Shown: positions 7,803 through 29,106 of the stretch, piece after piece
Layout of the letters: each line of letters opens with the position of its first letter
Numbering within the stretch: the stretch's first letter is position 1
NCBI GenBank assembly: GCA_029432815.1
Contig: JAROBA010000048.1
Span: 1-35,788 of the forward strand
DNA from: Pontiellaceae bacterium B1224
GTDB lineage: Bacteria > Verrucomicrobiota > Kiritimatiellia > Kiritimatiellales > Pontiellaceae
Direction: 5' to 3'
DNA length: 35,788 nucleotides
Program-made: the position numbers and the translations under genes
The notes under the pieces: generated by a model
Seen by the model: only the letters and a program-made list of their open reading frames with translations
Databases searched by the model: none
What the model was told of the DNA's origin: nothing

Positions 7803-8240
7803 ATGGGCCGAAAAAAGAATATCCGAAAACAGGGCGGGCGCGGAAGCGCCGGCCAGAACCGTGCCGAAACCGAAGCCTTTCTCAAAAAGAATCGCTCGAA
7901 GCCGGACGTCATTGAAACTGCCAGCGGTCTGCAATACACCATTAAAGATCCAGGCACTGGTAAAAGTCCGGATGAATGGAGCACGGTGGAAGTCAACCAG
8001 CGCATCATGCTGGCGGGCGGAAGAATTATTAAAGACACCTACCACGGCACCGAAACCGACACCTTCACGATGGCCGAGGCGATTGATGGCCTGAAGGAAG
8101 GCCTTCCGCTGATGAAAGAAGGCGGAAAGTTCCGCTTCGTCGTCCCGCCGGATCTGGCCTGGGGCAAGCGCGGTGCCGGCGATAAGATCGGTCCCTACGC
8201 CACCCTCATTTTCGACATCCGATTGGAAAAAGTAATCTAA
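7803..8240 (+). CDS. FKBP-type peptidyl-prolyl cis-trans isomerase
   Basis: 145 residues. The C-terminal two thirds is an FKBP domain: LQYTIKDPGTG, then GLKEGLPLMKEGGKFRFVVPPDLAWG and the final strand ATLIFDIRLEKV. Such enzymes speed folding by isomerising Xaa-Pro bonds. The first 30 residues are unusually basic (MGRKKNIRKQGGRG), with no signal peptide, so a cytoplasmic location is likely. The central segment EVNQRIMLAGGRIIKDTYHG replaces the more usual VHYTGWLxDGxxFDSS and lacks several conserved pocket residues, so activity may be reduced. A stop codon lies three codons before the ATG in frame, so the start is fixed even though no ribosome site is evident. Confidence 0.85.
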   Translation: MGRKKNIRKQGGRGSAGQNRAETEAFLKKNRSKPDVIETASGLQYTIKDPGTGKSPDEWSTVEVNQRIMLAGGRIIKDTYHGTETDTFTMAEAIDGLKEGLPLMKEGGKFRFVVPPDLAWGKRGAGDKIGPYATLIFDIRLEKVI

Positions 8241-8332: not shown

Positions 8333-9913
8333 CTAGAATCCGCGGGAGTCCTGACTTTGCTTAAACAGGTCGCGAGCGAGATTCAGGTTTTTAACGAAGT
8401 CGTCCAAATACACATCCCGCTTGCCGTACGACCGGAGTGGAATGATGACCGGCTTGGGCGTTGAACTCAGTTGCCCGGGCAGCACATAGCAGATATCGGC
8501 CTTGACCATAACACCGACAAACTCGCCGCGGTCGGTTAACAGATAGTCGCCGACTTTCGGTCGGGTACCGCTGAGCGTACGAACGTTGAGATAATCTTTT
8601 CCAAGCATTGGAACCACCTCAACCAGACCGTATGCATTCACATCGGAGGGGCTGAAAAGCATCGCCGTGCGGAGACGTCGATCCTTCAGCCCCTGCATCG
8701 TGATGGGTTCCAGCGCTCCTTCGGCAGCCCCGGTTACATGGGCCAGGCTGACCTGCGGTTCAGTTGCCGGAACAATGAGAGCCCGCAGCGAGCCGGCTTT
8801 CGCCTCGCCCACCATCGGCGCAGCAACGCCGCGGACTTCAGTGATGCGGTCGGACAAGCCCCCGAAAAATGATTTTTTTAAACCGAGCGCCGTAAATTCG
8901 GCCGGTACAAGTTTGAAACCGCCGATGTTCACCAACGGCATCGCAAGCTGCTTATCGGTGCGGTACGATTTCCCATTGGATGCGTACTCGGTATAGCTGA
9001 TCATGACGCGGCGCATCGCTTCGTCGCGCCGTACCCAGACCGATTGGCTGCGCGCTTCGGCGGCGGCTTGGCGCTCCTGCTCAAGCTTCGCCAGCTTTTC
9101 AGCATCGGCTATTTCCCGTTCTTTAAGGGTGGCTACCGAGACACGCGCTTCAACCAGCTCTTCGGATACCTGTTCGGTTTTAACCTCGAGCAATTTACGC
9201 TCGGTCAATGCCACCTCAGCTTTTGCAACGGCTTCCGCTTCCGCTGACTTTGCCGAGAGCAGATCCGCCTCACGACTGGCCAATGCGGCGGAGAGCTCTT
9301 TCGCCTGCCTCTCGGCCAACCGCGTCTCTGCACGGGCCCGCATGGCCTCTGCTTTCAATGCAAAGATTTCGGAAGCGCGGTCGCCGGCCGAGCGCTCGGC
9401 ATCACGGGCAAGACGTTCGGCCTCCTCGGCTTTTTGTTCCGCCAGCTTCACCCGGGCATACGCTTCATCGGCCCGCGTTTTGGCATCCAACTCGCGTTGC
9501 TCCAGCTCCAGCGTCCGAGCTTTGGCAAGTTCGGCCTGCTGATTGACCAGTTCGGCTTCCCGCGCCGCAAGTGCCGCTCGCGATTTCGCCCGCTCTGCAG
9601 CAAGCTCGGCTTCGCGCAATCGGGCCAGGGCCTCCGCACCATCCGCTCGTTCTCGATCGGCCTTGGCTTCCGCCAATGCCGCTTGCTCCAGCGCTTTTCG
9701 GGCAATATCGGATGATTCTTTCAGCTGCGCTTCAAGACGGGCGATTTCGCTACGGTAGCCCGCCTCGTTGCGCAGCCCCTCTTCAAGGACGTGCGAGAGC
9801 CCGCTGGCGGGAACGGGAATATTCGATTGCCCGTCTCTCAGGTTGCGCGACGTGAGTGCGAGTACTGAGAGAACCATGACGTCGAGCATCACGATTAGGA
9901 TGGATCGTCGCAT
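8333..9913 (-). CDS. ExbD/MotB-like single-span protein with long coiled coil; function unknown
   Basis: 526 residues. A short basic start is followed by one membrane helix (about 4-22) with an acidic residue inside it, Asp11 in IVMLDVMVLSVLAL. This recalls ExbD, TolR and MotB, where a membrane Asp carries protons. Residues about 45-290 are an Ala/Glu/Arg-rich heptad-like stretch, predicted to be a long coiled coil outside the membrane. The last 230 residues form a globular domain I do not recognise; the stretch GDYLLTDRGEFVGVMV faintly recalls trypsin-like folds, but no catalytic triad is evident. The start has an AGAGG ribosome site and lies 10 bp after the stop of the four-helix membrane gene upstream, so the two are co-transcribed. 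Motor-like function is inferred, not shown. Confidence 0.55.
   Translation of the reverse strand: MRRSILIVMLDVMVLSVLALTSRNLRDGQSNIPVPASGLSHVLEEGLRNEAGYRSEIARLEAQLKESSDIARKALEQAALAEAKADRERADGAEALARLREAELAAERAKSRAALAAREAELVNQQAELAKARTLELEQRELDAKTRADEAYARVKLAEQKAEEAERLARDAERSAGDRASEIFALKAEAMRARAETRLAERQAKELSAALASREADLLSAKSAEAEAVAKAEVALTERKLLEVKTEQVSEELVEARVSVATLKEREIADAEKLAKLEQERQAAAEARSQSVWVRRDEAMRRVMISYTEYASNGKSYRTDKQLAMPLVNIGGFKLVPAEFTALGLKKSFFGGLSDRITEVRGVAAPMVGEAKAGSLRALIVPATEPQVSLAHVTGAAEGALEPITMQGLKDRRLRTAMLFSPSDVNAYGLVEVVPMLGKDYLNVRTLSGTRPKVGDYLLTDRGEFVGVMVKADICYVLPGQLSSTPKPVIIPLRSYGKRDVYLDDFVKNLNLARDLFKQSQDSRGF
8599..8613. repeat. TTCCA-N5-TGGAA palindrome, copy 6 (coding)
   Basis: Core AGCAT. 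On the coding strand it lies in VPMLGK, using the third possible frame. Confidence 0.85.
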
Positions 9914-9923
9914 CGTTCGGCCT

Positions 9924-10439
9924 CTAGTTGGTTTCGACCTGGCTCGTCAGCAGTTCCTGCCGAAGCGGCGTGTGATAGCCCAGACGTAGAATCACGGAAA
10001 CAATGATGCCCATCGCAGTCGAGGCATAGGCAAACATGAGCCCTGCATCGGGATAGAATGTGATCACAATAAAACTTCCAACGGAGCCCAACAGTCCGAA
10101 GTAGAGCGGGAGGTCATAGTAAATGTCGATGGCATCGAGCAGTTCGAGGGTTTTCGCGGCGTCATAGCCCGCATTTTTAACGGACTTCGTTTTAGTGAGT
10201 GCGGCCACCCAGGCAAAAATCTGGAGCACCGCCGAAATCAGCACCATCATCCAGGCCATTCGCTGTCCAACCCGCTGCGTAAGCATCCGCGCCTGCTCAA
10301 CCATCTCCGGACTGATGGCTCCGGAACCTTCCGAGATCGGCACCTCACTCGGCTTCGCCAGAAAAGAGATTCCGACTGCAATGGCAACCGTCAGGGCCAA
10401 CACACCCAAAAAAATAAAAAAACCGCGCATAAACTTCAT
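9924..10439 (-). CDS. Small membrane protein resembling MotA/TolQ/ExbB proton-channel subunits
   Basis: 171 residues with four likely membrane helices (about 6-27, 61-82, 106-127 and 130-150). The last two, linked by a short turn, read YFGLLGSVGSF then STAMGIIVSVILRLGY; this resembles the pore helices of ExbB, TolQ and MotA, which carry GLLGTV and a small-residue T/S-A-x-G motif. The cytoplasmic loop between helices 2 and 3 is only about 25 residues, much shorter than in MotA, so this would be a minimal version. A CAGGAGTG ribosome site precedes the ATG by six bases. It is the first gene of a two-gene unit with the ExbD-like coiled-coil protein. Assignment to the family is a judgement from motif and topology and would need a profile search. 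Confidence 0.5.
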   Translation of the reverse strand: MKFMRGFFIFLGVLALTVAIAVGISFLAKPSEVPISEGSGAISPEMVEQARMLTQRVGQRMAWMMVLISAVLQIFAWVAALTKTKSVKNAGYDAAKTLELLDAIDIYYDLPLYFGLLGSVGSFIVITFYPDAGLMFAYASTAMGIIVSVILRLGYHTPLRQELLTSQVETN

Positions 10440-13457: not shown

Positions 13458-14285
13458 CTAGTCGCTTCTCTGACTTTCCCACACCTGAATCGCCCGCTTC
13501 CGTTCGGTCCCCCAGCGGTATCCACCCTGCGCCCCCGTTTCCCGAATCACACGATGACAGGGAATCAGAAATCCAATGGGATTTGTCCCAACAGCCGTCC
13601 CGACTGCACGCGATGCGCCCGGACTCTCAACAAACCTGGCCAGATGTCCATAACTGACCAACTGCCCTTCCGGTACCTGCAGTAGTGCCTGCCAGACCTT
13701 CACCTGAAAGTCGGTACCTTTCACATACGCCTTCAGCGGTTCCTTAGCATGAAGTTCTTTGCCAAAAATTCTACCGCACAATTCCCCAGCCACCCGATCA
13801 TCTCTTTCCAAACTGGCATGCGGCCAGCGCTGCTCAAGATTTTTCCAATGGGTGGAAAATTCCAATGCCTGGAAAAATGAGAGATGGCAGATCCCCCGCG
13901 AATTCACAGCAACCAGACAATCGCCGAAGGGAGTTTCTGCGACGCCCCCCTTAATGATCCAACCGGCGCCTCCGGTTTTAATTTCGCCCGGCGTTGCCGC
14001 CTCCATACGAATACAAAGATCGTGCAAACGACCGGGGCCCGATAATCCGGATTCGATGGCCGAATCCAGCACACTGTTACCTTCCCGCAGTCGCTGTTTT
14101 GCATCCGACAATGTCAGGCACTTCAGGAAATCCTTCGGTGTAATCCCGGCCCATCGCGAAAAAAGCCGATGAAAATGAGAGGCACTTAAGCCCGCAACTG
14201 CAGCCAAACAGTCGAGGTTCGGTTGCTGTTCGCGGTGTTCATTGATATACCGAATCACTTTAGCGATGCGCTCATAATCACTCAT
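13458..14285 (-). CDS. Ada-like AraC regulator fused to methylated-DNA-cysteine methyltransferase
   Basis: 275 residues from the chosen start MSDYERIAKVIRYINEH; an in-frame ATG at 14354 would add 23 residues, but the Ada-like family normally starts at this DYERI segment. Residues about 1-90 are an AraC-type helix-turn-helix (GLSASHFHRLFSRWAGITPKDFL). The C-terminal domain is an O6-alkylguanine methyltransferase with Cys243 in PCHRV as the alkyl acceptor, and the preceding GTNPIGFLI is conserved. The N-terminal zinc domain of E. coli Ada, which senses methyl phosphotriesters, is missing, so how induction works here is open. It stands alone on the minus strand, with a strong hairpin 250 bp upstream of its start. 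Confidence 0.9.
   Translation of the reverse strand: MSDYERIAKVIRYINEHREQQPNLDCLAAVAGLSASHFHRLFSRWAGITPKDFLKCLTLSDAKQRLREGNSVLDSAIESGLSGPGRLHDLCIRMEAATPGEIKTGGAGWIIKGGVAETPFGDCLVAVNSRGICHLSFFQALEFSTHWKNLEQRWPHASLERDDRVAGELCGRIFGKELHAKEPLKAYVKGTDFQVKVWQALLQVPEGQLVSYGHLARFVESPGASRAVGTAVGTNPIGFLIPCHRVIRETGAQGGYRWGTERKRAIQVWESQRSD
13843..13857. repeat. TTCCA-N5-TGGAA palindrome, copy 9 (in the Ada-like gene)
   Basis: Core ATGGG. It is separated by only two bases from copy 10, so the two form a tandem pair encoding part of FQALEFSTHWK. Confidence 0.8.
13860..13874. repeat. TTCCA-N5-TGGAA palindrome, copy 10 (in the Ada-like gene)
   Basis: Core ATGCC, identical to the copy at 34346. In both cases the coding strand reads FQALE. 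Confidence 0.85.
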
Positions 14286-14535
14286 CCCGGCACTATGCCA
14301 CGGGCACTCATCCCCGCCCACCCGATTCGTATCGCAAAGCATCCGCAGAACCAACCCAAAAGAAGTGATACCTCACACAAGCGCATCCAAACAAAGATTC
14401 CATAACATCACACCGCAATCCTTTCCAAGGACGGAGCAGCGAATGATCACAATCCGACCTCTTCGTCACCGGCACTCACTGCTTAAAAAAACAGTCCCGC
14501 GTTCCAGATACATCCCGCTTCAAAACAGAAGAATA

Positions 14536-21540: not shown

Positions 21541-21643
21541 ACCCGTCCTGCCGCTGACCGCTCTCGGTTTCAAAAATGAAAAGCGGAGCCGCTCAGGATA
21601 AAAAAAGAAACAGATAGAACGCAGCCACAAAAAGCAATGTGGC

Positions 21644-23590
21644 CTTGCTTCTGATTTCAAAAAACTGTCAATCCACAACGGATGATGTGCGGGTGATGCT
21701 TCAGGCCGGGTTGCTTCTGATTTCAAAGAACTGTCAATCCACAACTACGAAGGTTTCTTTCCCGAAGCAGTTTAAGTTGCTTCTGATTTCAAAGAACTGT
21801 CAATCCACAACGGTGTCGATGATGTCGGCGATGCGGGCGGCGTTGCTTCTGATTTCAAAGAACTGTCAATCCACAACGCCGTGTTCAGGTTGAGAGGTAA
21901 CTCCGAGTTGCTTCTGATTTCAAAGAACTGTCAATCCACAACTTAAGCGGTCAGGGCCACGCTGAAGAGTTCGTTGCTTCTGATTTCAAAGAACTGTCAA
22001 TCCACAACTGCCCTTATATAAGGATACGGCATCGCCGTGTTGCTTCTGATTTCAAAGAACTGTCAATCCACAACATGCGTGGTCCGGCAGCATGACGGGT
22101 ATGAGTTGCTTCTGATTTCAAAGAACTGTCAATCCACAACCTGCAAGCAGGCGGGCTATTCGGACAGTCTGTTGCTTCTGATTTCAAAGAACTGTCAATC
22201 CACAACTACTGCGCCCGCGTTGCGTTCAGATCCTTGGTTGCTTCTGATTTCAAAGAACTGTCAATCCACAACGGTGGCCTGTACGCCCTCCGCCCCGGTG
22301 ATGTTGCTTCTGATTTCAAAGAACTGTCAATCCACAACTCGCTGCTTGGCCGCTTTTGCTTCGCGTCGTTGCTTCTGATTTCAAAGAACTGTCAATCCAC
22401 AACCCGCGACATGCCGCGCCTCGACTGGGAGCAGTTGCTTCTGATTTCAAAGAACTGTCAATCCACAACGATTGCGATGAACAGCTGCAGAAGCGCGCAG
22501 TTGCTTCTGATTTCAAAGAACTGTCAATCCACAACTCGGCATGTCCGCCGAACTGATCGACTACGGTTGCTTCTGATTTCAAAGAACTGTCAATCCACAA
22601 CTTATGTGGGGGCGTGCGCTCCGTATGATTAGTTGCTTCTGATTTCAAAGAACTGTCAATCCACAACTCCGGTGTCGGTGAGCGTGGGCGATCCGGTGTT
22701 GCTTCTGATTTCAAAGAACTGTCAATCCACAACGTGACGACGGCATACCATTTGATAGCGGCCGTTGCTTCTGATTTCAAAGAACTGTCAATCCACAACG
22801 GACCGCAAGACTTTGCGTAACAACTACATGTTGCTTCTGATTTCAAAGAACTGTCAATCCACAACGTCCTCATAGGTCACCGCAATCCTCGCCACGTTGC
22901 TTCTGATTTCAAAGAACTGTCAATCCACAACTGCGCAAAATCGGCGACAAGCCCGGTCTGGGTTGCTTCTGATTTCAAAGAACTGTCAATCCACAACGGA
23001 ACTGAGTTTGATCAGGCAGCTGAAATCGTTGCTTCTGATTTCAAAGAACTGTCAATCCACAACTCAGCATCTGATCGCCCTTAAGACGCTCAAGTTGCTT
23101 CTGATTTCAAAGAACTGTCAATCCACAACCACGTGAAGTTAATATCTTCCCCAACCTTGGTTGCTTCTGATTTCAAAGAACTGTCAATCCACAACGGTTG
23201 TTGATGAGCTGAGGGCAACGTAATGTTGCTTCTGATTTCAAAGAACTGTCAATCCACAACTACACAGGTCTATAACAAATAACCAAGAGGGTTGCTTCTG
23301 ATTTCAAAGAACTGTCAATCCACAACCAAACCCAGACACGCTAACATAATTATATCGTTGCTTCTGATTTCAAAGAACTGTCAATCCACAACTAAATCAA
23401 TCGAAGGGAAAACCGGCGGCTAGTTGCTTCTGATTTCAAAGAACTGTCAATCCACAACACGGTTATGTTCATCACAGATAGGCATTACGTTGCTTCTGAT
23501 TTCAAAGAACTGTCAATCCACAACAACCCATCACGCGCTTTTTATTTAAACATGGTTGCTTCTGATTTCAAAGAACTGTCAATCCACAAC
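21644..23590 (-). CRISPR. Type II-C CRISPR array, 30 repeats and 29 spacers
   Basis: Thirty 36-nt repeats, all identical except the terminal one at 21644, which has two changes (positions 1 and 19 in plus-strand reading). Spacers are 30 nt, with three of 29 nt. In crRNA orientation (minus strand) the repeat begins GTTGTGGATTGACAGTTC, which pairs with the anti-repeat of the tracrRNA at 29123-29143. The degenerate repeat marks the old, trailer end, so the leader is at 23591 beside cas2 and new spacers enter there. The five leader-proximal spacers are about 39% GC against about 57% for the four oldest. No duplicate spacers were noticed. Open frames through the array are repeat artefacts. Confidence 0.99.
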
Positions 23591-23723
23591 ATAGCCGCCA
23601 TAAGCCCCTATTTACTAAGGAACTAGCCTCAGCTCGCCCCAAAGAAAACCGGCATGATTCTAACCATGAAGTACATTTCCAGTTCATTTTTTGCATTCTA
23701 CCTTTCTTCAATTGATCTACCAG
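23591..23723 (-). promoter_or_regulatory. CRISPR leader
   Basis: The 133-bp gap between the cas2 stop and the first repeat is at the leader end as judged from repeat decay and tracrRNA pairing. A -10-like TAGAAT occurs on the minus strand near 23661, but its -35 region is poor, so the promoter is not fixed. Transcription could also continue from the cas operon. Confidence 0.6.
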
Positions 23724-24062
23724 TCAGAAAAACTCCAGCTGGCTGGGTTTGGGAGAAAGCGGCGTTGTCGCCTTCCCCCAAACATTGATGATATTTCCAT
23801 ATTGCTTGTCTGTGATCCTCATAATGCTGACCTGCCCTTTGGAAGGAACCAGTTTGTTAATTCTTTTTGTATGTACATCGGCACTTTCCGTACTTCCGCA
23901 GTGCCGCGTGTAAACCGAATATTGCATCATGGTAAAACCGTCACCCAACAACCGCTTGCGGAACACGGAAGCGTCGTGACGCTCCTTTTTCGTGTTTGTC
24001 GGCAGATCGAAGAATACAAACAGCCACATGATTTTATAGGCGTTAAGCCGTACCTCCGACAT
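23724..24062 (-). CDS. cas2: CRISPR-associated endonuclease Cas2
   Basis: 112 residues. Cas2 forms the dimeric core of the Cas1-Cas2 integrase that adds spacers. The ferredoxin-like start WLFVFFDLPTNTKKER contains the conserved metal-binding Asp19. GFTMMQYSVYTRHC and VSIMRITDKQ are typical type II Cas2 segments. The chosen ATG overlaps cas1 by 20 bp; an internal ATG (residue 12) just before WLFVFFD is an alternative start. It is the last cas gene; no csn2 or cas4 follows. Confidence 0.95.
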   Translation of the reverse strand: MSEVRLNAYKIMWLFVFFDLPTNTKKERHDASVFRKRLLGDGFTMMQYSVYTRHCGSTESADVHTKRINKLVPSKGQVSIMRITDKQYGNIINVWGKATTPLSPKPSQLEFF

Positions 24063-24966
24063 CTTCCACCGCCTTCATTACCGGATAATCCACCTTCTTT
24101 TGTTCGCCAGCGATGCAACGCGCCAATGAAGCCGTGGTATACGACAAGCCAACCATTAAGGGCCGTAGGGTGTTCGTTAGATGAACATCTGCGGCGAGCA
24201 GTTTAAGCAACTGTTGTTTGTGTTCTCTGGAAAGTTCTTCAATAGGTTCATCAGCTTCCTTCCAAATTTCATAAACCACTTCATCTGCATAGGGGCGATA
24301 GGGTTCCATTACATCATCTGCCAGCGCAAACGCATTGTATTTATTGTGGTGATGGATTCCAATGGCTGGATAAAGACCGGAACCCACCAGTGATCGGGCC
24401 ACTGCCGCACGCAGGATCGCATACGCATAGTTCAGCAGGTGATTGGGAGCACCACCAAAACGTTCGCGCCGAAAATCCTCGCCGAACAGGTTTTGCCAAT
24501 AGACCCGGGCGGCGGCTCCTTCGCGATTATCCGTATCACCGCTCTTCACATTTCCTGCATGATGCAGTAAAGCTTCAACCCCTCCCGACTCCGTCCGTTG
24601 CAACATGGCCGCCTGATTTTTAATTTTAACCTCAACGGTCTGCCTCCACAGCTGTTTTTTCAACGGCTCCGACATTTCCAATTGCGCCGCCAACGTTTCG
24701 GCATGCGTATGATTTCCATCGAACGGAACACTCATCGCCGTTGGATGATGCAGCTTATCGCAAAAAACAATCGCCGCGTTGTTCGCCGTCAGCTCTTCGA
24801 TCAACCGAAGCGACAGCGTAATGCTATGATTATCCAGCACCACAAAACCGATATCCTCTACAGGCACCGTCCGCACTTCCCCCTCCGGCTTCGGTGCATA
24901 CACCAATTGCCCATTCTTAAACGAAAGATGTGCCGCCGACTCGAAATAGACCGTTCGCTTTAGCAT
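24043..24966 (-). CDS. cas1: CRISPR-associated endonuclease Cas1 (type II)
   Basis: 307 residues, normal for type II. Cas1 integrates new spacers with Cas2. The catalytic set is in place: Glu149 in NREGAAARVYW, a His among 205-207 in GIHHHNKYNAF, and Glu221 with Asp217/Asp218 in ADDVMEPYRP. The ATG is two bases after the cas9 stop, with GAAGGA inside the cas9 end as ribosome site, so the genes form one operon with cas2. Confidence 0.98.
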   Translation of the reverse strand: MLKRTVYFESAAHLSFKNGQLVYAPKPEGEVRTVPVEDIGFVVLDNHSITLSLRLIEELTANNAAIVFCDKLHHPTAMSVPFDGNHTHAETLAAQLEMSEPLKKQLWRQTVEVKIKNQAAMLQRTESGGVEALLHHAGNVKSGDTDNREGAAARVYWQNLFGEDFRRERFGGAPNHLLNYAYAILRAAVARSLVGSGLYPAIGIHHHNKYNAFALADDVMEPYRPYADEVVYEIWKEADEPIEELSREHKQQLLKLLAADVHLTNTLRPLMVGLSYTTASLARCIAGEQKKVDYPVMKAVEDVGGTA

Positions 24967-24968
24967 GA

Positions 24969-27900
24969 TTATCCTTCAATAAATTCAACATCTCCAAGTA
25001 CACCCAATCGGAAATCAACCCCGTCTTTCAATACATCGAACTTCGATGCACTAATCCGCAGCTTTGGCGGAGGATTGACTGGATCAAAAACTGAGACTTC
25101 CCGTCCTTGCTCCTCATCCTTGCGTCCTTCAGCGTGATACCGAAGCTTGATCCTTCCATCGGATTCAATACCGAAGACAATATAAAGACGTCTGTTTAAC
25201 AATCCATCATCCCTTTCAAGGCCTTCCCGCAGCAGAACCATATCCCCAACCAGATAGCTCTGCTTAAAATGAAGGAGACCACTCCCGATCTCCTTAGAGT
25301 CCCCATACCGCGGCAATGAAACCAAACCCTGTGTTGCTTCGTATGTGTTGTACACATTCGCAACTCGCCTAACACGGCCTTTTCCCGTTTCGCCCTCCCA
25401 AATAACAAAAGCATAGCTATCATCTGGTTTGACAAATAAATGATGCTTATGGGGGCTATTAACCGCTCTATCCCTGTGAAACTTTAAGCTGATAGGATTT
25501 GCAACGGGAGAATATAGACGCACCTTCCTAATCGGGATCGGATCACCATTCTTATTCGGCAACACATATAACCCACCCATCTTCCTCTCTAATTCCGCCA
25601 CTTGCTGCCGAATGGCAGATTCACCCACCTCATCGGTCGTTGCCCTCTTCTTCTTGAGCGTATCAATCTCCTTTTTCAAACGGGCTTCCTCCGCCCGCCC
25701 ATGTGTGACAATCTCCCGCACCCGGTCATCAACGATATTTTTCACGTCGGAATCCTTGAGGTCGGTCAGCTTTTTTCGGGCGACATATTTCACAACTTCT
25801 TTAATTTCCCCTTTCTTATTCTCTTCAAGCCGCTTGATCGCCCCATAGAATGTATCCTTGTGCAATGACCCACGGGCAGTCTGTCCTTGCTGCACAACTA
25901 TTTTTCCACGCACCTTCGCCCGTTTCTTCGTCTGTTTGAGCAAATGGTTCGGAGCGTAGTGCGACACAAGGATTTCGTTCCGCAACTCCTTCATGTCCTT
26001 GGTGAAGGATTTCCAAGGTTTGGAGAAATGCGGCTTTTCAGGTACCGTCGGATCATTGGATTCGTAACTTTCATATTGGTGGTAGAATTGCGCCAGATTG
26101 TCGTACCGCTCGCGCGTTACGCATGCAACAACAATGGCGTCGATGGTGTGGTGCACGTGGTTATCGCGGCTTTTTTCAATCCCCCAGCACCGCCGGAAAT
26201 CATCGGTCGTCTTTCCGTTGACCGTGTGAACCTTTGTGAAGACGGTTTTCAAATACATCCGAGCATATTTTGTGATTATACGTGTATCGACCAATTGGCT
26301 GTTCTTAAACCCCTCCGGCACCTCCTCCATGGTGAACCGACGGTATTTATTCCGCAAATAGTCACGTTCAAACTGTAATACAAGTCGAGCCTGGATTGCC
26401 CGATCCTTCAGTTCCTTGGTTGTTGCCCGCTGGCTCGCAATTTTCTTTTTCTCTATTTGGCCATTTAAATCCTCAACGGCCTGCCGCCAATGATCAACAC
26501 GCAGGAGAATCTGGTCATAGTTGGAGCATTCAAATGGAATGCGGTTGTTCTTCTCCCGATTGCACTGCTTGTGAGCCACAGTCTTATTCTCCTGTGAATT
26601 ATCGCAACACAGGCTGCGCGGGATGGTGTGCTCAATTTCACTCTGCTCGCTCAGTAACGTGGAGACATTTATTTTTTCATTACAATATGGGCAGAACTCA
26701 CTCTGTTCCGTCCAAAGCTGGTATTTCAGGATTTCATCATCACCCGCATTACGACCGAGTCGCTTTTCGATAATGTCGGCATATTCAGTGCGCTTCTGCT
26801 CATTCTTCCTTTGCCAGATCTTAACTGCCACCCGTTTATTGGCATCGTTCAACTCGCGCGCCATTTCAAGGTGAATAGCCGTCTGATCGGTAACAATTCC
26901 CCGCTTCAGCAGTTCATTCACTACCGCCTTCACCCGATGCATTGCCCGCATGAACACCGGGTTGCGGATTGATGAGATGCGCGGATCACCAAGATAGTAT
27001 TTCCCATCGGAATGCTTTTCCGCAGGTTTGTAGGTTTCAATGGCCGACGGGTGGTAAAGCATTTTAACGGCCTCATCGTCGGCTCCATGCCTGTCAACCA
27101 GGTAATCACCAATCCGGTCGTGCAACCGCTTCGCAACCAAATATTCGCCATTACCGTTGTTGACCGCAATCTGAACACGGACTTCCCTGCAAATGCTATC
27201 CGCCCGATCCTGTAGAGAAGACGGAAGTTTCTCAGCAAACGCCTGTACGTTACGCAAATCATACTGCTCCCCGAACTCCTTAGGATTATCCTTGTGCTGC
27301 CGGACAAATTCGTTCACACACCGAACTTCGGCCACGTACTGGTTATGCTCGTCAATGAGCCGCGAAACATCGTCCCTCAACGCGACGTCCTTTTCGGCAC
27401 CCTCGCCAAGAACGCCATCCAGATTTGCGAAGAAGACTGCATGCGAATAGAGAAAGCCCTGTTTCATGAATGGCAAAATCTTTCGGATGGCCTTTAGGCT
27501 TAATGCACCATACCCCTGCCCCGCATTAATCTTGGCGAACCGTTCCGCTGCCGTATCATCCAGCCCCAGCTTATTCACGGCATACGCTTTCACCTTCGCC
27601 TCGTCATCAAAGGAAAACAGCACATGCCAAACCTCATTCAGTAAATCGCCGCCCGTCCGGGCAATCCCGTCTTTGGACAAGCGTTTTCCCTTGTAAGCCT
27701 TAAGCACCCCCTGCAAGAGGTCCTCCCCGAACAAATTTCTCAGCTTTGCCGTAAACGGACAGCCAGAGAGTGATTCATTGGCGCGGTAGTTAAACAGCAC
27801 ATGCGCCTGCGTATCGCGCCCCTTGGCATATCCAAACTCCTGCCCGCGCGGAGTCAGTTTCTTCGCAATATCCCTGAAATCAAAATGCGCCTTGCTCACC

Positions 27901-29054
27901 CGGAAGAAGAGAGGAATGATCCGCTTCTTCTCATCCTCCGACAATGGACGTAGATCCTCATCATCCAGCGTTTTGATTTTGACATTGTTCAGCGTCTGCC
28001 ACATTCGGAACTCCTCGAATAACGGATGCGAAATGGGACAGCGCTTTTTCTTCGGCTCGAACGGACAGTTCGCCACCAATCCCTTCTGCGACCGCAAAGG
28101 GCGCTGATAGAAGATTGCATCACGCAACTCCTCCCGGAGGGTTTCGGGCAGTTCCTGCTTTTCACAGATCAAATTGAACTCGGCAAGATAATGCTCGTCC
28201 CGGGCAGTATGGACATTACGAATACGCTTTCCCTGCTGATAGCATTCCTCCCAGAAATACTGCCCCAACGTACGTCCATCCATTTTGGACGACAGATCAA
28301 CAATCTCCCCTTTAACCTTACCGAGGTTTTCCCGCTTGTTCAGGAAGCCTGTCAGGAAGACCATCGCGCTATCCAGGGAATCCGCCGCTGAAATTCCTTT
28401 CAATACAGCTCTCTGGAATCGCCGCACCTTTGCATCCTGCTCGTCGTCCGAAAACAGAGCCGAAACGGCGTCATGCAACTCTTCCTTTTCTCTATAGCCT
28501 CCGGCAAGGACGGCCAACGCCCGGTCACGCAAAGCCCCGATCGCATCGTCGCTCCCCGCATCCAGTCTGTTGCTTTTGAACCCTCGCCGCTGCGCCATAT
28601 GGAAGAACGCCCGCCCCAGCTTAAAACGATCCGCCTCATCATCAAGATTCAGGGTAATGGTCACAGCCTGCCAGCGATAATAGTACGGGTTCTTGGAATC
28701 CTCCTCTGAGGTTTTACACCAATCACGAAATTCCTGATTTTCAGGATATATCTTTTTCGACTGCCAATCCTTTAATTCCTGAGTAGACAACGCTGGACAG
28801 AATCCCGCCACAGAAAGAGCCTTCAACGTTTCTATCTTACGGAGCTTACGACGGAACTTAATTCGGCGAGCCGACCGATAGCCCGTACGTTCCGAGGCTT
28901 TTGAAGACTCGTTGCCCTTTTCGATCTTCACCCCTTCCTGGAAAATATGAACACCTTCCTTAATCCGTTCAAACTGTCCATTCCCCAAATCATCCACAAC
29001 AGCCCAGCCGATGCTGTTTGTCCCCAAATCCAGTCCAAGAATCCGTTTGCTCAT
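24969..29054 (-). CDS. cas9: CRISPR-associated endonuclease Cas9, large type II-C variant
   Basis: 1361 residues from the ATG at 29054, supported by AAAGGA seven bases upstream and by the canonical start KRILGLDLGTNSIGWAV; a longer frame from 29099 adds 15 doubtful residues. RuvC-I has Asp9, the arginine-rich bridge helix follows (RTGYRSARRIKFRRKLRK), RuvC-II has Glu730 in HLEMAREL, the HNH nuclease has His809 in EIEHTIPRS, and RuvC-III has His969 and Asp972 in HHTIDAIVVAC. All catalytic residues are therefore intact. The HNH region includes CPYC and a later HKQC, a possible zinc site. The protein cuts DNA guided by crRNA and tracrRNA. With only cas1 and cas2 beside it the locus is type II-C, yet the protein is larger than the common 1000-1100-residue II-C enzymes. 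The PAM-binding C-terminus (about 1100-1361) cannot be decoded by eye. Confidence 0.98.
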   Translation of the reverse strand: MSKRILGLDLGTNSIGWAVVDDLGNGQFERIKEGVHIFQEGVKIEKGNESSKASERTGYRSARRIKFRRKLRKIETLKALSVAGFCPALSTQELKDWQSKKIYPENQEFRDWCKTSEEDSKNPYYYRWQAVTITLNLDDEADRFKLGRAFFHMAQRRGFKSNRLDAGSDDAIGALRDRALAVLAGGYREKEELHDAVSALFSDDEQDAKVRRFQRAVLKGISAADSLDSAMVFLTGFLNKRENLGKVKGEIVDLSSKMDGRTLGQYFWEECYQQGKRIRNVHTARDEHYLAEFNLICEKQELPETLREELRDAIFYQRPLRSQKGLVANCPFEPKKKRCPISHPLFEEFRMWQTLNNVKIKTLDDEDLRPLSEDEKKRIIPLFFRVSKAHFDFRDIAKKLTPRGQEFGYAKGRDTQAHVLFNYRANESLSGCPFTAKLRNLFGEDLLQGVLKAYKGKRLSKDGIARTGGDLLNEVWHVLFSFDDEAKVKAYAVNKLGLDDTAAERFAKINAGQGYGALSLKAIRKILPFMKQGFLYSHAVFFANLDGVLGEGAEKDVALRDDVSRLIDEHNQYVAEVRCVNEFVRQHKDNPKEFGEQYDLRNVQAFAEKLPSSLQDRADSICREVRVQIAVNNGNGEYLVAKRLHDRIGDYLVDRHGADDEAVKMLYHPSAIETYKPAEKHSDGKYYLGDPRISSIRNPVFMRAMHRVKAVVNELLKRGIVTDQTAIHLEMARELNDANKRVAVKIWQRKNEQKRTEYADIIEKRLGRNAGDDEILKYQLWTEQSEFCPYCNEKINVSTLLSEQSEIEHTIPRSLCCDNSQENKTVAHKQCNREKNNRIPFECSNYDQILLRVDHWRQAVEDLNGQIEKKKIASQRATTKELKDRAIQARLVLQFERDYLRNKYRRFTMEEVPEGFKNSQLVDTRIITKYARMYLKTVFTKVHTVNGKTTDDFRRCWGIEKSRDNHVHHTIDAIVVACVTRERYDNLAQFYHQYESYESNDPTVPEKPHFSKPWKSFTKDMKELRNEILVSHYAPNHLLKQTKKRAKVRGKIVVQQGQTARGSLHKDTFYGAIKRLEENKKGEIKEVVKYVARKKLTDLKDSDVKNIVDDRVREIVTHGRAEEARLKKEIDTLKKKRATTDEVGESAIRQQVAELERKMGGLYVLPNKNGDPIPIRKVRLYSPVANPISLKFHRDRAVNSPHKHHLFVKPDDSYAFVIWEGETGKGRVRRVANVYNTYEATQGLVSLPRYGDSKEIGSGLLHFKQSYLVGDMVLLREGLERDDGLLNRRLYIVFGIESDGRIKLRYHAEGRKDEEQGREVSVFDPVNPPPKLRISASKFDVLKDGVDFRLGVLGDVEFIEG

Positions 29055-29077
29055 TTTCATTTCCTTTAAGCTTCGTA

Positions 29078-29106
29078 TTGACTCACATGCTTCAAACACC
29101 TAAACA
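29078..29106 (+). promoter_or_regulatory. Probable tracrRNA promoter
   Basis: TTGACT (29078-29083) and TAAACA (29101-29106) are exactly 17 bp apart and point toward the anti-repeat. The -35 matches the sigma-70 consensus at 5 of 6 positions, the -10 only at 3. It overlaps the cas9 upstream region on the opposite strand. Confidence 0.5.

Follow-up and report, generated by a model that had tools for sequence, protein, structure and literature searches.

The question raised by this locus is what two adjacent genes, here called A and B, do in a Pontiellaceae bacterium (B1224). They lie in a stretch of DNA of 35,788 nucleotides (contig C147, hereafter the window) from a genome of 5.4 Mb. Flagella, the uptake of nutrients, division, gliding, type 9 secretion and defence against phages are all driven by known 5:2 motors. 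An initial annotation of the window likened the two genes to a minimal proton-channel motor with a coiled-coil tail, an interpretation which is, as a whole, partly supported by the present analysis. The genome has 15 ordinary ExbB-family (PF01618) places and 15 ExbD-family places as well, and the A-B pair stands outside the ExbB-family set. The two-gene unit itself was confirmed where it had been placed, that is, on the minus strand, with an open reading frame of 171 amino acids (A), 10 bp and then that of B (Table 1).

Table 1. Positions in the window of the A and B genes and of their main features.
Feature	Positions	Strand	Basis or remark
Gene A	9924..10439	minus	ORF, 171 aa, four-helix membrane protein, proposed pentamer/pore subunit
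Gene B	8333..9913	minus	ORF, 526 aa: membrane helix, coiled coil and terminal domain
A-B intergenic gap, 10 bp between A stop and B start	9914..9923	minus	Coordinates
A Asp109, start of pore helix 3 (DLPLYFG)	10113..10115	minus	Asp in 124 of 125 rows, Glu in 1
A membrane helix 3 with GLLGS motif	10056..10112	minus	Hydropathy; helix 110-128 in model
A Ser119, proposed polar ring (cf. ExbB Thr148)	10083..10085	minus	Thr in 111 and Ser in 14 of 125 rows
A membrane helix 4	9987..10043	minus	Hydropathy
A Thr141, proposed second polar-ring residue (cf. ExbB Thr181)	10017..10019	minus	Thr in 96 and Asn in 29 of 125 rows
B Asp11 within membrane helix	9881..9883	minus	Asp in all 115 B proteins adjacent to A
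B residues 45-287, predicted coiled coil	9053..9781	minus	0 Pro in 243 residues, period 3.50
B residues ~288-526, predicted degenerate HtrA/Deg-like double-barrel domain	8336..9052	minus	Predicted model, Foldseek, VIA
B Val454-Gly455-Asp456, aligned to Ser-Gly-Gly of HtrA active site	8546..8554	minus	hhalign register

Other genes of the window are described here briefly. A gene for an FKBP-type prolyl isomerase (7803-8240, by Pfam) is convergent with B, and such a gene adjoins the pair in four close relatives (L017-L020). An Ada-like fusion of an AraC-type helix-turn-helix with an O6-methylguanine-DNA methyltransferase is found at 13458-14354. Furthermore, a Type II CRISPR-Cas locus occupies 21625-29099, about 11 kb from the pair; it includes Cas9 (24969-29099, Pfam RuvC_III and HNH_4), Cas1 (24043-24966) and a CRISPR array with a 66-nt period from about 21625 to 23590, one strand of which reads as a repetitive open reading frame (22316-22873).

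The A-B pair reaches well beyond the window. In an even draw of genomes over the phylum, the broader profile of A found it in 124 of 387 genomes and 55 of 198 genera, with one match per genome; because A was not found in the other 263 genomes, it is not essential to the phylum. Within the family A is present in 8 of 29 genomes, and in the class the first profile detected it in 23 of 345. Among named genomes, 31 A loci were obtained with a single nine-residue pattern, which is narrow and gives no basis for limiting the pair to the phylum; the named relatives are Pontiella and other Kiritimatiellota/Lentisphaerae. B stands directly behind A in 122 of the 124 genomes (a count composed of 2, 115 confirmed by profile and 5 found by motif directly downstream); in 30 of the 31 named-genome loci it follows A and shares its strand, the contig of the remaining one ending inside A. 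In genomes G567 and G571 (loci L219 and L220), A has other neighbours and no adjacent B. The commonest arrangement in the relatives is a 4-base overlap of A and B (53 of 120). Both the pairing and Asp11 of B, discussed below, are kept down to about 19-26% identity of B, so they are not due to chance. The A-B pair is real and conserved, and it is without a name in the Pfam, NCBIfam and PADLOC libraries searched, no family of which fits A or B.

Protein A shows four main hydropathy segments (9-27, 64-82, 110-128 and 133-151), in agreement with the four helices first proposed for it, and both motifs singled out at that time, GLLGSVGSF and STAMGIIVSV, are present. Its AlphaFold2 model has a pLDDT of 80.2 and a pTM of 0.64. 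Helices 3 and 4 are the best conserved part of A: in an alignment of 125 rows, which counts the window twice (W and L186), Gly115, Ala137, Tyr138 and Gly144 are invariant, position 160 is always Arg or Lys, position 119 is Ser or Thr and position 141 is Thr or Asn in every row. In 50 of the 124 genomes A has at least 500 residues, with a large N-terminal part. By eye, the extension in these long forms (L208-L252, for example) is helical, comprises about 350 residues and carries extra membrane helices, and Pfam gave no fitting match to the N-terminal part in the two members scanned. A tree of A cores, constructed from 46 of the 124 A proteins and having several long branches, largely follows the family assignments, which fits vertical descent. 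Long forms sit on both sides of the midpoint split of this tree and two changes are needed to account for them among the 46 proteins, so that the long form may be of early date and the short A of the window may have come about by reduction.

Protein B has one hydropathy segment, 5-21, and Asp11 is inside it, as had been proposed. This Asp is present in all of the 115 B proteins picked by adjacency and profile, a choice in which the Asp was not used, and in all 30 B proteins of the named genomes, which overlap the former set. The 115 proteins are those confirmed by profile among the 122 loci, and a motif search which requires the Asp (120 of 120) was excluded as evidence on Asp11. The conservation of Asp11 and of the gene pair, both of which were to be checked according to the initial annotation, has thus been borne out. 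The coiled coil of about 245 residues assigned to B was recovered as a predicted coil of residues 45-287, which contain no Pro and four Gly and have a best hydrophobic period of 3.50. The power at this period was equalled by 52 of 500 shuffles and is not significant for the window protein alone; the best period falls between 3.4 and 3.7 in 84 of 92 other full-length B proteins. The coil ranges from 155 to 466 residues in length, and that of the window would measure about 36 nm if continuous, calculated arithmetically as length x 0.1485 nm. SMC-type matches to relatives of B were set aside as coiled-coil similarity. The long tail is on the B side, the ExbD-like one, where it had been placed.

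Sequence comparison falls short of proving a link between A and ExbB. Window A gave no match to Pfam PF01618 above the cut-off; one of eight A relatives matches this family, with an E-value of 0.094, and the family is not among the best 25 of 51 Pfam families for 31 A members. A search of PDB sequences with the A profile by hmmsearch gave no match. By local hhalign, on the other hand, GLLGTV and TxxGL of ExbB fall in exact register with GLLGS and TxxGI of A. The score of this comparison was equalled by 2 of 100 shuffled controls with the broad alignment and by 6 of 100 with the narrow one, columns being shuffled within blocks of 12, and none of an earlier set of 60 controls was as high; global hhalign of A against ExbB was no better than the controls. 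The similarity of A to ExbB at the level of sequence profiles, whose lack would have told against the initial annotation, is thus borderline: the pore helices align in the right register, and no Pfam match among those listed passes the cut-off.

Structure comparison of the A model favours the ExbB/TolQ/MotA/ZorA group, with E-values that are non-significant. In Foldseek, pore chains of TolQ, ExbB, MotA or flagellar stators make up eight of the best nine rows, all at E above 0.4. In VIA, a ZorAB chain (8vvn_D) has a Z of 9.8 with 2.5 A over 112 residues and ExbB a Z of 9.5, while CorA and unrelated or designed helical bundles score up to Z 10.4; the absence of a family from the VIA lists is no evidence against that family. 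The cytoplasmic loop before the pore helices of A has about 27 residues (83-109), and the large domain of the MotA/ExbB type is absent.

The polar residues of the pore deserve separate mention. In ExbB, Thr148 and Thr181 are described as a polar ring facing Asp25 of ExbD (PMC7014051), a similar ring is reported for Thr145/178 of TolQ (PMC12215075), and the same polar ring is given for ZorA/MotA (PMC11890865). Positions of this Ser/Thr type are present in the two pore helices of A as placed by alignment with ExbB, and the spacing differs, being 22 residues in A versus 33 in all of the 31 ExbB proteins listed for the relatives. As for the partner, the B helix showed no profile similarity to ExbD by hhalign (19 ExbD sequences from 30 loci), 75 of 100 shuffles scoring as high, and window B has no Pfam match, PF02472 included.

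The terminal domain of B was first called unrecognised and unlike OmpA. The latter description stands, and the former has to be revised, since the predicted fold is that of a degenerate HtrA-like domain. The model of B 285-526 has a pLDDT of 88.6 and a pTM of 0.87. Its best Foldseek E-value is 6.2e-5 (HtrA1, probability 1.00), with 21 matches at E <= 0.001, and trypsin-like proteases fill the VIA list (Z 12.6, 4.5 A over 182 residues). TM-scores are 0.3-0.5, which indicates a fold shared with HtrA and not a close relative. Moreover, a profile of 121 B domains, compared with the HtrA proteins of the relatives, scored 26.3, above all of 60 shuffled controls (best 22.8), and this broad alignment places GDYLLTDRGEFVGV on GGPLLNIHGEVIGI; the narrow B-domain alignment was weak against HtrA by hhalign (score 19.85, E 0.054). 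The HtrA template came from the 12 of 30 loci which passed a motif filter, and the alignment of the head leaves out L087, whose contig ends in A, and the truncated B proteins L066 and L068. That the terminal domain of B has the trypsin-like fold of HtrA/Deg is accordingly predicted with high confidence.

The catalytic apparatus of HtrA is probably not retained in this domain. The position of the catalytic serine of the HtrA GNSGG motif is degenerate in the B domain, in a register taken from a modest hhalign alignment: residue 454, at the serine position, is Ser in only 2 of 121 rows and mostly Arg, Val, Pro or Ala, the following Gly455 is kept in 121 of 121, and Asp456 replaces the second Gly of SGG in 120 of 121. 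In addition, none of the alignment columns holds a His or a Ser in more than half of the 121 B-domain rows. Because the serine position is degenerate and no such column is kept, the head of B is most likely a binding domain which has lost protease activity, as judged from its residues.

Beyond A and B, no gene common to many families was found in the neighbour analysis. Directly downstream of B, a gene for a Ser/Thr kinase that has a membrane-type segment is present in 40 of 48 examined loci of families f52 and f68 (L253-L301), made up of 39 of 46 loci of one family and one of two of the other, usually within a few dozen bases of B. One of these kinases was confirmed by Pfam (Pkinase, E 2e-37), and one has a long C-terminal extension which we take to be a formylglycine-generating-enzyme-like domain. 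The scan covered the 94 of 124 loci with at least 2.6 kb downstream; L214 and L277 were too short, so that L277 was left out of the 47 loci of the larger of these two families, and three of the gaps have unreliable start calls or are without a computed value. In the other families, examined alike, none of 46 loci has the kinase gene, which places it outside the core.

In sum, sequence comparison establishes the pairing of the genes, Asp11 as an invariant residue of the membrane helix of B, and a constant Ser/Thr119 and Thr/Asn141 in helices 3 and 4 of A; modelling predicts the fold of A and the HtrA-like terminal domain of B. The best explanation, which we regard as probable though by no means assured, is that A and B assemble in the inner membrane into a rotary complex driven by ions, a new form of the 5:2 motor whose dimer is fitted with a drive shaft and ends in a pseudoprotease head. 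What speaks for it is that three features occur together: a membrane Asp that never varies in the partner protein, a polar pair equally constant in the two pore helices of A, and genes that are strictly paired. By analogy with known motors, five A proteins would surround two B helices, ions would bind Asp11 where it meets the Ser/Thr polar ring of A, and their passage would turn B relative to A. The coil of B, which in the window protein may extend to about 36 nm, would take torque or pull across the periplasm to the head, which, its serine-protease signature being lost, would bind and not cut a partner located in the wall or in the outer membrane and pull on or twist it. The large N-terminal part of the long A proteins, if periplasmic, might anchor the pentamer; B would then be the moving shaft, as is proposed for GldLM in PMC9389320.

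Other readings of the same data have to be weighed against such a motor. A and B might instead be a signalling complex which reports the state of the envelope, the head and coil feeling strain or a ligand, A relaying it (in one lineage with the membrane Ser/Thr kinase) and Asp11 acting as a switch or assembly residue. We consider this unlikely, though it deserves attention: the kinase gene which follows the pair in two families speaks for it, as do the occurrence among the structural matches of the B head of a structure titled RsgI9 S1C-NTF2 (7sjy), from an anti-sigma factor, and the weak match of PADLOC KwaA to 9 of 31 A proteins (best E 7e-4). The kinase is outside the core, however, and the KwaA match may be mere hydrophobic similarity, a shared pattern of membrane helices or a distant link, while ion-driven motors require precisely such residues, an Asp that never varies and an equally invariant polar pair on two helices of the pore. 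The same residues weigh against a passive tether, in which B would be a periplasmic spacer or wall anchor and A a membrane clamp, with no ion flow. A long, proline-poor coil of such variable length and a head of the binding type would suit a tether, but a clamp needs neither an invariant membrane Asp nor a matching polar pair in 125 of 125 rows, and we hold this reading to be quite improbable.

An anti-phage system of the Zorya kind seems very improbable indeed. It is suggested by the ZorAB chain, which has the highest Z among the motor chains for A, and by the CRISPR-Cas9 locus in the same window, distant as the latter is from the pair. PADLOC models of Zorya, however, match neither A nor B; the A profile matches nothing among 72,556 plasmids and 50,697 phage records; the single copy per genome (124 of 124) and the largely taxonomic tree are unlike mobile defence islands; and the tail is on B, outside the cytoplasm, and not on A. 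We return, then, to the ion-driven motor as the preferred reading. A bolder form of it, which we offer tentatively and with doubt, is that the pair represents an ion-driven rotary machine of a lineage of its own, spread across the phylum and lying outside the recognised MotA/TolQ/ExbB group, whose dimer would be a drive shaft across the periplasm with a pseudoprotease gripping the target, one lineage being wired to a membrane Ser/Thr kinase by which motor state or load would be turned into phosphorylation. If A and B are a motor, their conservation as a single-copy pair in roughly one third of the genomes sampled from this large phylum would point to a further ion-driven process in the envelope. 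The invariance of Asp11 offers a one-residue test, and the HtrA-like head a route to the target.

Among the titles and abstract openings surveyed in the open-licence literature on motor pairs and pseudoprotease tails, the A-B pair was not described, and its comparison with known systems is as follows. ExbB/ExbD, TolQ/TolR and MotA/MotB resemble it in having paired genes and a membrane Asp in the B-type protein near the cytoplasmic side, and ExbB, TolQ and MotA have a Ser/Thr ring in two pore helices, as A appears to. The pair differs from them in the lack of PF01618 and PF02472 matches, in the short loop of A (~27 residues), in the spacing of the polar pair (22 versus 33) and in having only about four residues before the helix of B. 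B itself is like ExbD, TolR and MotB in its single N-terminal helix with an Asp of the essential type and in a gene adjoining that of A, but unlike them in having no PF02472 similarity and no peptidoglycan-binding end of the OmpA type. ZorA/ZorB has a 5:2 core, and the A model can be superposed on the ZorAB chain at 2.5 A over 112 residues; as described in PMC11890865, however, it is ZorA that bears a long tail, in the cytoplasm, and ZorB ends in a peptidoglycan-binding domain, whereas A ends at residue 171, about 20 residues past helix 4. With HtrA/Deg (S1C) proteases, the terminal domain of B shares the predicted double beta-barrel fold, from which it departs by its degenerate serine position, by the Asp in place of the second Gly of SGG (120 of 121) and by being joined to a membrane helix of the motor type.

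Two systems come nearer. GldL/GldM, like A and B, combines an A-type subunit with a B-type protein bearing a long dimeric periplasmic shaft, of 18 nm according to PMC9389320, and has poor sequence similarity to other 5:2 motors; the same source describes the GldM shaft as four folded domains and not a coiled coil, and GldL as having a long cytoplasmic tail. In the TPH-vWA systems of PMC12204202 (Mol Biol Evol 2025), a helix with the motor Asp and a periplasmic head are united in one protein, as in B, beside an A-type gene; these systems are described as having no separate tolR or exbD, as in the A-B pair, they are reported from Verrucomicrobia, and rotation inside the pentamer is proposed for them. 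They differ in their von Willebrand A head, in a motor which is a TolQ homologue and in genes which are mostly unlike pairs (PMC12204202). A vWA head was not found in B, whose head has an HtrA-like predicted fold with trypsin-like rows among its matches and which in the window has no Pfam match; the A-B pair is distinguished by this HtrA-like head on a long coiled coil, by an A without PF01618 match and by a single B. The authors of PMC12204202 regard TPH-vWA as a sign that more such systems await discovery. The A-B pair fits this kind, the nearest published idea, but its head is another one, its shaft is a predicted coiled coil and its pore protein escapes recognition by PF01618.
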